NCBI GenBank assembly: GCA_947474905.1
Contig: CANJKQ010000050.1
Span: 1-6,948 of the forward strand
Direction: 5' to 3'
DNA: 6,948 nucleotides
DNA from: Pseudomonadota bacterium
Lineage (GTDB): Bacteria > Pseudomonadota > Alphaproteobacteria > Sphingomonadales > Sphingomonadaceae
A model generated the notes under the pieces. That model saw nothing but the letters and a program-made list of their open reading frames with translations, made no database searches and had not been told where the DNA came from. Within the stretch, counting starts at the first letter, position 1; every line of letters starts with the position of its first letter. Positions 4,243 through 6,948 of this stretch are shown here, one piece after another. The translations under genes and the position numbers were made by a program.

Positions 4243-4797
4243 ATGCGCAAAGCGGCATTTGCTGCAGTGGCACTGGTCGGTGCGCTGACCGCGCAACCGG
4301 CGCTGGCCGATCCGCCGAACGGGTGGCAGCAGGATCGCTATGGCCAGCACGATCAGGGCGATGACCGTGACCATGGCGACCATCGCGATCGCGGCGATGG
4401 CCGTGATCAAGGTGGTGGCCGTGATCAAGGGGACGGTCGTGATCGGGGCGATGATCGCTATCGTGGTGATGACCGTTATCGCGGCGGTGACGATCATGGT
4501 CGTGGCGGCTGGCGCGGCGAGGACGATCGCAGTCGCGGTTGGCGCGGCTGTCCGCCGGGGTTGGAGCGCAAGGGCTGCGTCCCGCCCGGTCAGGCACGGC
4601 ATTATTTCTATTCGCGTGGTCAGGCCTTGCCCTATGGTTATGGCGGCTGGACGCGCTATGACGCATTGCCCGTGCAATTCCGCCATCGCTACGGCTATGG
4701 CGACCGCTATCGCTACATTTACCGTGACAATGTGGTTTACGTGGTCGATCCGCGCACACGGCTGATCCGCGATGTGGTCGATCTGTTGAGCTATTGA
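4243..4797 (+). CDS. Secreted Asp/Arg/Gly hexapeptide-repeat protein with CPPGL/CVPPGQ C-terminal domain (RcnB-like)
   Basis: The 184-residue exported protein has a clear signal peptide (1-22, cleavage after QPALA). Residues 39-80 are seven back-to-back hexapeptides of the type G-D-x-R-D/Y-x, mixing Asp and Arg so that net charge stays low. A Gly/Arg/Trp-rich stretch follows (81-102), then CPPGLERKGCVPPGQA (103-118) with two cysteines that could form a disulfide. The C-terminal domain (119-184) is rich in Tyr and Arg and contains YFYSRGQALPYGY, YRYIYRDNVVYVVDPRTRLI and a final hydrophobic helix. This C-terminal architecture recurs in periplasmic proteins of sphingomonads and other alphaproteobacteria and resembles RcnB-like proteins; its biochemical role is unknown to me. 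The gene is divergent from glpD, has its own strong ribosome-binding site and is followed by a hairpin. Envelope location is well supported, while a stress role is only suggested by the possible EcfG promoter. Confidence 0.85.
   Translation: MRKAAFAAVALVGALTAQPALADPPNGWQQDRYGQHDQGDDRDHGDHRDRGDGRDQGGGRDQGDGRDRGDDRYRGDDRYRGGDDHGRGGWRGEDDRSRGWRGCPPGLERKGCVPPGQARHYFYSRGQALPYGYGGWTRYDALPVQFRHRYGYGDRYRYIYRDNVVYVVDPRTRLIRDVVDLLSY
4357..4482 (+). repeat. In-frame tandem repeat, seven 18-bp units
   Basis: Seven consecutive 18-bp units encode GDDRDH, GDHRDR, GDGRDQ, GGGRDQ, GDGRDR, GDDRYR and GDDRYR. The DNA copies are imperfect, but neighbouring units can be very close: GGCCGTGATCAAGG occurs at 4399-4412 and again 18 bp later at 4417-4430. 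The unit is a multiple of three, so gain or loss of copies would keep the frame and change only the length of the charged spacer. Confidence 0.85.
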
Positions 4798-4803
4798 GGC
4801 GAT

Positions 4804-4838
4804 GGCGGTTTGGCGTGGCGTCCCCACGCGGAACCGCC
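4804..4838 (+). terminator. Strong hairpin between the secreted-protein gene and rnr
   Basis: GGCGGTT (4804-4810) pairs with AACCGCC (4832-4838). After one wobble and one mismatch, GCGTGG (4813-4818) pairs with CCACGC (4824-4829) around a 5-nt loop. The hairpin begins 6 nt after the TGA at 4795-4797, the usual place for an intrinsic terminator, but only a weak T-rich run (TATCCTT) follows. It ends 13 nt before the rnr ATG, so it could also limit or shape rnr translation. Confidence 0.55.
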
Positions 4839-4851
4839 TATCCTTGCGGCC

Positions 4852-6948
4852 ATGCCCAAGCCCAAGCGCCCGGCAGGCTTGCCGAGCCGCCAGCAGATCC
4901 TGGATTTCATCACCTCGACGCCCACCCCGGCCGGCAAGCGGGAAATTGCCCGTGCATTTGGCTTATCGGCGCAGGAAAAAATCGCGCTGAAAGCGCTGCT
5001 CAAGGACATGGCCGATGAGGGGCTGATCGATTCCGCGCCCGGCCGCGCTTTCCACAAGATGGGCGGCGTCCCCAAGGTGACGGTGCTGCGCGTCACCGAG
5101 GTGGGGGATGACGGCACCATCTGGGCCGTGCCCGAAAGCTGGCATGCCGAAACGCCGCCGCCGCTGCTCAGAGTGCGCGATCGCAAGCAAGGCGCGCTGG
5201 CGCTGGGAGACCGAATCCTCGCCCGCACCGAGGAAGCGGGCAAGGGCTGGATCGCGCATCCCATGAAGACGCTGGCGCGGGGTGAGGCGCTGATGCTCGG
5301 CGTGCTGCGGCAAGTGGGCGACCGGCTGTTCCTGCAAGGCGTCGAGAAAAAGGAACGGCGTGATTTTCCGGTGGCGGATGCGGGCGGGGCGCAAGCCGGT
5401 GACCTGGTGCTGGCGGAAAAGACCGGCCGCCCGCCGCGCATCGCCGCGCGGGTGACGCAAGTGCTGGGCGATCCCTTTGCACCGCGCGCCTTTTCGTTGA
5501 TCGCGGTGCACAAGCACGAGATTCCGGTCGCGTTCAGCGAGGAAGCGCTGAATGAGGCGACGCGGGTGGCGAAGCAGCCGCTCGACGGACAGGGCCGTGA
5601 AGACCTGCGCCATCTTCCCATCATTGCGATCGACCCTGCCGATGCGCGTGACCATGACGACGCGGTCTGGGCGGTGCCCGATGGTGATCCCGCCAACCCC
5701 GGCGGCCATCGCGCCATCGTCGCCATCGCGGATGTCAGCTTTTACGTGCGGCCGGGTGCCGAGCTTGATCGGGAGGCGCGGCGGCGCGGCAACAGCGTCT
5801 ATTTCCCCGATCGCGTCGTGCCGATGCTGCCCGAAATCCTGTCAGCCGATATCTGTTCGCTGAAAGAGGGCGAAGACCGCGCGGCGCTTGTCTGTCACCT
5901 GACCATCGACAAGGCGGGCGCGATCACGGGGTATCGCTTTGCCCGCGCGGTGGTGCGGATCGCCGCGAACATCGCTTATGAGGACGCGCCGGCGGCGATC
6001 GATGCTAATTCCTCTACGTCGTCGCCCCAGCGAAAGCTGGGGCCGCTCTCGGAAAGAGCGACCGAGAACGATCCCGGCGTGCGCTGGGATGACGAGCGTA
6101 TTCTTCCCGCGCTCCGCAACCTCTGGGCCTGCTGGCGTTCACTTGCGGCGGCGCGCGCGAAGCGCGAGCCGCTCGACCTTGATCTGCCCGAGCGGCGAGT
6201 CGTGCTGGATGAAAAGGGGCGGATCATGTCGGTCACCCCGCGCGAGCGGCTCGACGCGCACCGGCTGATCGAGGATTATATGATCGCCGCCAACGTCGCC
6301 GCCGCGCTGGCGCTGGAGCGCAAGAAGGCGCCGGTCATGTATCGCGACCATGAGCCGCCATCGCGCGAAAAGCTGGTGGCGCTGAAGGACTATCTCGCCA
6401 CGTTCGGCCTCGATTTCGCGCTGGGCCAGGTCATTCGCCCCGCCACCTTCAACCATGTCATCGCGCGCGCCCGCGCCCTGGCGACGGCGGCGGAAGACGG
6501 TGCCGATATCGTGCCGCAAATCATGGAACAGGTGCTGCGCAGCCAGACCCAGGCCTATTACGGGCCTGAAAATCATGGTCATTTCGGGCTGGCGCTGGCG
6601 AGCTATGCGCATTTCACGTCACCGATCCGGCGCTATGCCGACCTGATCGTCCATCGCTCGCTGGTCGCCGCCTTTGGGCTTGGGCCAGGCGGGCTGAGCG
6701 AAGGCGAAGCGGCGACGATGGCGCGGATCGGCGAAAGCATTTCGGGGCTCGAGCGCCGCGCGATGGAGGCGGAGCGGGAGACAATCGACCGTTATGTCGC
6801 TGCCTATCTGTCGGAACGCGTCGGCGAGGTGATCGAGGCGCGCATCACCGGCGTCCAGAATTTCGGCTTCTTCGCCACGGTGGAGGGCATTGGCGGCGAC
6901 GGGCTGGTCTCAGTGCGCGATCTGGGCAGCGAGTATTTCCATTATGAC
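4852..6948 (+). CDS. rnr: Ribonuclease R (partial, 3' end outside window)
   Basis: RNase R is a processive 3'-to-5' exoribonuclease of the RNB (RNase II) family that degrades structured RNA in the cytoplasm. The visible 699 residues include an N-terminal winged-helix-like region (about 10-65) and the cold-shock RNA-binding region (about 70-230). The RNB catalytic domain starts near 245 and carries the metal-binding aspartates D261, D267, D269 and D270 in IAIDPADARDHDDAVW. It also has NSVYFP with its active-site Tyr (314-319), MLPEILS, IEDYMIAAN and FTSPIRRYADLIVHR (588-602). The S1 domain begins near 658 and is cut by the right edge. All catalytic residues I can place are intact. Residues about 389-415 are foreign to the family and come from an in-frame palindromic element. 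The ATG at 4852 gives the usual N-terminus but lacks a Shine-Dalgarno. Its frame is the same as that of the upstream gene, from which it is separated by one TGA and 18 codons. Confidence 0.95.
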   Translation, partial: MPKPKRPAGLPSRQQILDFITSTPTPAGKREIARAFGLSAQEKIALKALLKDMADEGLIDSAPGRAFHKMGGVPKVTVLRVTEVGDDGTIWAVPESWHAETPPPLLRVRDRKQGALALGDRILARTEEAGKGWIAHPMKTLARGEALMLGVLRQVGDRLFLQGVEKKERRDFPVADAGGAQAGDLVLAEKTGRPPRIAARVTQVLGDPFAPRAFSLIAVHKHEIPVAFSEEALNEATRVAKQPLDGQGREDLRHLPIIAIDPADARDHDDAVWAVPDGDPANPGGHRAIVAIADVSFYVRPGAELDREARRRGNSVYFPDRVVPMLPEILSADICSLKEGEDRAALVCHLTIDKAGAITGYRFARAVVRIAANIAYEDAPAAIDANSSTSSPQRKLGPLSERATENDPGVRWDDERILPALRNLWACWRSLAAARAKREPLDLDLPERRVVLDEKGRIMSVTPRERLDAHRLIEDYMIAANVAAALALERKKAPVMYRDHEPPSREKLVALKDYLATFGLDFALGQVIRPATFNHVIARARALATAAEDGADIVPQIMEQVLRSQTQAYYGPENHGHFGLALASYAHFTSPIRRYADLIVHRSLVAAFGLGPGGLSEGEAATMARIGESISGLERRAMEAERETIDRYVAAYLSERVGEVIEARITGVQNFGFFATVEGIGGDGLVSVRDLGSEYFHYD
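6017..6094 (+). repeat. Palindromic interspersed element inserted in frame within rnr
   Basis: The segment is bounded by related inverted ends: CGTCGTCGCCCCAGCG on the left and, reading the other strand from the right, CGTCATCCCAGCG. Inside are three adjacent hairpins. They are GCCCCAGC/GCTGGGGC with a GAAA loop (6024-6043), CGCTCT/AGAGCG with a 5-nt loop (6044-6060), and ATCCCGGC/GCTGGGAT with a GTGC loop and one wobble (6071-6090). The sequence around CCAGCGAAAGCTGG and GCTGGGATGACG is the core of a repeat family abundant between genes in sphingomonads and some other proteobacteria. Off-frame translations give the familiar IPACAGMT (plus) and SFRWGDD (minus) strings. At 78 bp it adds 26 codons and keeps rnr open. 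The true edges may extend a few bases to each side, as GCTAATTCCTCT before it is also unlike RNase R. Confidence 0.75.

Follow-up and report, generated by a model that had tools for sequence, protein, structure and literature searches.

A putative CGTC-REP dimer in frame in a sphingomonad RNase R gene, at a loop occupied by several families of palindromic repeats

The rnr gene of a sphingomonad, encoding RNase R, carries within an open reading frame a palindromic insert which, judged by its sequence, is a CGTC-REP dimer of a dispersed kind, with relatives scattered through other sphingomonad genomes. The presence of the insert, its open frame, its dispersed relatives and the recurrence of inserts at this one site can be read directly from the sequences compared: a repeat signature of one of seven types occupies the same RNase R loop at 46 of 146 distinct loci. 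We consider it probable that the loop is permissive and disordered, that it is a recurrent landing site for such repeats, and that their presence is mostly neutral. The features of the window, by which we mean the whole 6,948-nucleotide stretch of DNA analysed, are listed in Table 1.

Table 1. Positions of the RNase R gene, its variable loop and the parts of the insert in the window.
Feature	Position	Strand	Basis and remarks
rnr, RNase R	4852..6948	+	cut by window end; open frame; Pfam RNB and CSD2; start from homologues
Variable loop, residues 380-424	5989..6123	+	EDA motif to LWACW; probable recurrent landing site; loop comparison, related loci
Putative CGTC-REP head-to-head dimer, in frame, residues ~390-415	6020..6094	+	sequence; insert alignment; dispersed matches
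REP unit 1: CGTC tag, 8-bp stem, GAAA loop	6020..6043	+	hairpin at 6024-6043
Small spacer hairpin: 6-bp stem, 5-nt loop	6044..6060	+	sequence
REP unit 2, inverted: 8-bp stem with one G.T, GTGC loop, GACG end	6071..6094	-	

The gene start was placed at the ATG at 4852, where the homologue consensus opens with MPKPK, and the frame is open from there to the window end at 6948, includes an RNB domain (Pfam, E 1.2e-90) and is uninterrupted across 6000-6100. The preliminary description of this DNA had pointed to palindromic hairpins inside an intact rnr frame, and three are indeed present (6024-6043, 6044-6060 and 6071-6090). CGTC occupies 6020-6023 and its reverse complement GACG occupies 6091-6094, after the stem of the second unit at 6071-6090. 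The insert (6020-6094) adds about 25 residues to RNase R, giving a loop of 41 residues compared with mostly 14-24 in repeat-free sphingomonad loops. The block of E. coli RNase R (5xgu) aligned with the insert is about 20 residues shorter, in good agreement with the earlier estimate of about 18. The best database match to the window protein, identical at 100% over 91% of the query, has the same insert, and the nearest named relative (P0002, 88% identical) has a short loop at the insert site in its protein sequence. Conservation of the insert residues across the order, which would have spoken against a mobile origin, is therefore not observed, the residues being absent from many relatives including P0002.

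The 16-base pattern of the first unit, searched with up to 3 mismatches, occurs twice in the window (one exact match and one with 3 mismatches) compared with a mean of 0.10 in shuffled sequences, of which 1 in 200 reached two matches. Folded as RNA, positions 6005-6110 give -52.9 kcal/mol (z -4.95), with none of 200 shuffles equally low, and the minimum-energy fold is a single long hairpin in which the outer units pair with each other rather than three separate hairpins. Searches of a plasmid collection for near matches to 4500-6948 and distant matches to 6005-6105 returned none, as did a search of the whole window against Rfam at the gathering threshold. Elsewhere in the window, the open reading frame at 4243-4797 encodes a small protein in which 18-bp tandem repeats (4351-4486) specify a stretch rich in D, R, G and H; its match to DUF1236 is weak and sub-threshold.

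Both units of 6020-6094 conform to the CGTC-REP superfamily in having an unpaired CGTC at one end. Their 8-bp stems and 4-nt loops lie within the superfamily ranges of 8-9 bp and 4-5 nt, as in family CGTC-1. The near-invariable A-T pairs of CGTC-REPs at the first two stem positions are found in unit 2, while unit 1 has G-C and C-G. Past the stems come CGC and (inverted) CGT, where the CGTC-REP tail is given in the main published account as most often, not always, CCA. Copies counted in related genomes indicate that the sequence is also multicopy, dispersed, mainly intergenic and arranged head-to-head, as are CGTC-REPs. Using 6016-6095 as a query against 30 sphingomonad genomes (E <= 0.001), we obtained matches in 19 and none in 11, with at least 34 copies in the genome richest in them. 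These dispersed relatives bear out the proposal that a mobile-type repeat sits in frame in rnr, and the contrary expectation that related genomes would hold no other copies can be dismissed. Among 30 copies fetched, 27 were not scored as lying in genes and one (L094) lies in the rnr of its own genome; two further, truncated loci (L085, L105) were flagged as in-gene on an assumed position and were left out of the in-gene tally. Six RNase R inserts of the window's type, window included, align over both arms and differ in their spacers, and the window's spacer with its small hairpin at 6044-6060 is not common to the others. No target-site duplication of the kind expected of a MITE is evident by eye in pairs of filled and bare loci, in which decay blurs the ends.

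The RNase R loops compared were taken from tblastn alignments between the EDA motif and LWxCW in 172 records, which gave 146 distinct loci (window included) after exclusion of one locus with a frameshift at the loop (L178) and merging of 24 sets of identical sequences. The sampling is non-random: 80 loci were the best matches to the window among genome contigs, a further 60 were picked among the matches listed for 397 genomes sampled across the order, of which 394 gave a match, 20 of the 60 loci being chosen for an alignment break at the loop, and the remaining 31 were relatives of two genomes. Before merging, inserts were present at 21 of the 80 best matches and at 20 of the 60 order-level loci. 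Two looser measures were set aside. A lax peptide-signature count, made on the 121 aligned proteins most similar to that of the window, gave some signature in 92, and alignment breaks at query residues 385-390 in the order-level search proved a poor sign of large inserts, most of the 20 genomes concerned being short-looped.

We labelled the seven types of insert F1 to F7, names coined for the present analysis. The commonest is F2 (22 loci), with runs of C and G and peptides such as PLPLAGG...PHPNPSP. It is followed by F1 (7 loci, window included; CGTC), F3 (7 loci; LPGTGRGT...PPPRAGE), F5 (5 loci; SRDT...RVSTSLDTNG) and F6 (3 loci; a CGTC-like variant, RESGSP...DPRLRGG), and by F4 (AEPVEA...FDKLR) and F7 (SRTWSGIH) at one locus each. 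Among the carriers of F1 is S. asaccharolytica NBRC 15499 (L001). A single superfamily might embrace F1, F6 and F7, and there may be kinship between F4 and F5; the number of unrelated kinds of repeat at the loop is accordingly put at no fewer than three, and is probably higher. The preliminary description had considered such cases rarely noted in sphingomonads, a view at odds with a loop filled at nearly a third of the loci, albeit in a non-random sample. Four loci (L203, L215, L225, L229) were counted as inserted on their peptide signature with fewer than three dispersed DNA matches, and five records (L030, L048, L178, L221, L262) were not counted despite at least three. RNA folding z scores below -2 were found for 44 of the 46 inserted loops and 10 of the 100 others. 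Loops of at least 35 residues occur at 23 of the 100 uninserted loci, and 19 of those 23 have fewer than three dispersed matches, so that the loop also lengthens by other routes or by unrecognised repeats. An SSPCS-like motif marks a longer loop at ten loci (L011, L030, L059, L076, L211, L213, L216, L217, L219, L220), and loops with this motif have few or no dispersed matches.

The frequency of inserts at the loop was compared with that in control sequence. A blastn search with six families across tiles of three genomes, 1.2 Mb in all, found 95 places, 5 of which were scored as in-gene from an open frame and codon usage, without annotation; one of the five was rnr. With 39 inserts as queries and self-matches excluded, a single DNA criterion picked out 22 of the 80 rnr loops, and in 19 of these the match reached at least 50 bits. 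The 22 include two loci classed as uninserted, L004 and the deletion scar L058 (the latter also among the 19), and one signature insert, L022, was missed. In the flanks of the rnr loci (about 3 kb on each side) there were 19 strong and 23 weak matches outside genes, with no strong and one weak match in other genes. The same 39 queries gave 57 strong and 52 weak matches outside genes in the tiles and 4 strong matches in genes, once in rnr and three times elsewhere. Strong matches in genes other than rnr thus number 3 across roughly 1.65 Mb of control DNA, falling in genes for a biotin-carboxylase-type subunit, an error-prone DNA polymerase and LeuS. A comparison of 21/80 with 3/1648, assuming one gene per kb, gives p of about 1e-26 in Fisher's test and a ratio per kb of about 65, in which the rnr figure is the signature count, more lenient than the blast criterion, and the control queries derive from rnr inserts, so that families never entering rnr are uncounted.

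On a tree of RNase R (FastTree only, loop omitted from the alignment) the insert labels need 41 state changes. Those forced by branches with support >=95 number 15 for F2, 6 each for F1 and F3, 5 for F5 and 3 for F6, counts in which parsimony does not separate gains from losses. Where unrelated families share a position, each must have arrived separately. Sister species do not always agree in what they carry: an F1 locus (L013) adjoins two F2 loci (L193, L040), F2 is paired with F5 (L077, L212), and F3 is paired with a bare locus (L064, L188). Both orientations of arm order occur in F5 (L207, L212). RNase R proteins only about 59-67% identical to that of the window are also inserted (L218, L223, L225, L226, L228), with F1, F2, F3 and F5 represented; the hot spot is therefore not limited to close kin.

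Inserts also appear to be lost. The branches leading to L057 and L058 are very short, and in the latter 81 nt bounded by two CCCCTCCCG repeats are missing without disturbing the frame, which we read as one clear in-frame deletion. Three other loci (L056, L275, L276) have the same 20-residue loop as L058, with little of the repeat remaining. In L178 (genome G192), half an F3 hairpin remains and rnr is out of frame at the loop, which may reflect either a failed deletion or a sequencing error. Two F2 inserts (L037, L040) hold a second palindrome nested within one arm.

An AlphaFold2 model built from a 121-row alignment is of moderate overall quality (mean pLDDT 75.9, pTM 0.67). Residues 388-411 have pLDDT below 50, with block means of 28 and 31 for 391-410, and this stretch is flanked by helices at 378-385 and 417-437 in a well-predicted part of the RNB domain. 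The insert is thus predicted to be disordered. On the question raised in the preliminary description, whether the segment is a surface loop, the model bears out a loop between helices; exposure at the surface is likely.

The pattern extends to other enzymes. In 30 genomes the corresponding LeuS loop has 18-23 residues in 26 and 53-75 in the other 4 (L231, L232, L233, L234), which hold F3, F2, F2 and one composite insert; two LeuS genes that are 94% identical nonetheless carry F3 and F2, respectively, at one site. The DnaE2 loop, readable in 20 of the 30 genomes with paralogues possible among the 20, has 9-19 residues in 15 and 30-59 in 5 (L292-L295, L321). One of these long loops has an F3-like peptide and one has WTPEQVRGDE, and not every one is linked to a repeat family at the DNA level. 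Both query genes were picked as inserted, and each counts itself. The long loops of LeuS and DnaE2 imply that the pattern is not peculiar to rnr. Of the same 30 genomes, 17 have an insert in rnr, a rate that is not comparable with those of LeuS and DnaE2 because the set over-represents rnr inserts.

We posit that a dispersed CGTC-REP dimer entered a disordered RNase R loop in frame. Repeats of this kind would insert widely, coding copies persisting only where they are in frame, free of stops and in a tolerant loop, and insertions elsewhere in coding sequence would mostly be purged. In-frame, stop-free insertions would survive in the rnr loop because it tolerates extra peptide, and the loop would be a recurrent landing site since sphingomonads harbour several active repeat families. 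Unrelated palindromes would arrive independently and presumably be translated as low-complexity peptide, while in-frame deletion by recombination between repeated arms would remove inserts and leave scars. We infer that RNase R remains functional with the insert in place, that carrying it is close to neutral, and that survival rather than targeting makes the hot spot. Permissiveness alone leaves unexplained the excess of rnr over LeuS and DnaE2, in a set enriched for rnr inserts.

A preference for the target itself, whereby a DNA feature of the site attracts palindromes or hairpins are swapped by recombination or template switching, would account for the arrival of several families at one place, for the different families in 94%-identical LeuS genes, which could represent exchange instead of fresh insertion, and for the second palindromes nested in one arm of L037 and L040. 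Inspection of the rnr and LeuS sites by eye revealed neither a common motif nor an evident target duplication, and we regard such a preference as unlikely, if worth keeping in view. A related and rather unlikely suggestion is that the loops of RNase R, LeuS and DnaE2 are docks at which a resident hairpin is replaced or nested by other families, a common hairpin-driven recombination step doing the replacing and nesting. If true, unrelated selfish repeats would circulate through the same protein sites, rewriting enzyme surfaces.

The preliminary description also held autoregulation of rnr to be conceivable, the hairpins lying in an mRNA of a class that RNase R itself acts on. On this reading they would be retained for the structure they give the mRNA, recognised by RNase R or by further nucleases. 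The strong folding of 44 of the 46 inserts, F1 arms that are alike between variable spacers, and insertion of rnr in 17/30 compared with 4/30 for LeuS and 5/20 readable for DnaE2 (again in a set enriched for rnr inserts) are what such self-regulation might produce. However, 100 of the 146 loci are without a recognised repeat, near-identical sisters lose theirs, recent insertion of a repeat would equally leave the arms alike, and LeuS and DnaE2, which have no role in RNA decay, show the same pattern of filled loops. Retention for function therefore seems improbable. More remote still is that the inserts are merely a fast-evolving, low-complexity loop resembling repeats by chance, or an artefact of assembly. 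The long loops of 23 of the 100 uninserted loci, 19 with fewer than three dispersed matches, such as those with SSPCS-like motifs, lend the chance reading some colour. For the inserted class, chance is contradicted by loop DNA that mostly matches many dispersed places, compared with at most 1 match for one shuffle per loop, and recurrence of inserts in assemblies from many species argues against an artefact. Entry of dispersed repeats into a permissive loop, mostly without consequence, is thus the reading we favour.

Repeats within genes are known from other systems. The elements described by Ogata and colleagues in 2000 from Rickettsia (Rickettsia palindromic elements, RPEs) are reportedly translated in frame inside conserved proteins. 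The rnr insert, as a palindromic repeat in frame in a conserved protein gene, resembles them by analogy, and differs in its host order and in that the sphingomonad rnr site holds several unrelated families. The likeness to RPEs drawn in the preliminary description is apt, as RPE-6 and RPE-4 of R. conorii correspond to CGTC-1 and CGTC-4 repeats according to the main text of Di Nocera et al. (2013; PMC3733652). The CGTC-REPs of that text share with the window insert the CGTC end, 8-bp stem, 4-nt loop and head-to-head dimers, and have alphaproteobacterial hosts including sphingomonads. The same text records CGTC and GTAG repeats in genes, including those for error-prone polymerases (such as dnaE2) and tRNA synthetases. 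It differs in that the insertion at about the same site which it describes is in recB of two Xanthomonas. The terms RNase R, ribonuclease and vacB are absent from this main text; RNase R might be named in its Additional file 3, a list of target genes. Enterobacterial RU elements, small mobile sequences that occur in genes (Delihas 2007; PMC2759123), are likewise intergenic, MITE-like repeats that in genes are read as protein, but are longer (103-168 bp) and have other hosts, and the terms same site, same position and hotspot are absent from the text of that article. REPs and RPEs in genes are thus already known, while the multi-family hot spot in RNase R, for which we found no precedent in the open-licence PMC papers searched, is apparently new.

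One loop visited by several mobile families amounts to a natural experiment, its insertions, losses and scars ordered along a phylogeny, in which the neutral passenger, the regulator and the source of new peptide become testable alternatives in a single enzyme with solved homologues. The loops of RNase R, LeuS and DnaE2 are pointed to as insertion-tolerant sites, and the hot spot in RNase R shows where proteins can absorb mobile DNA.
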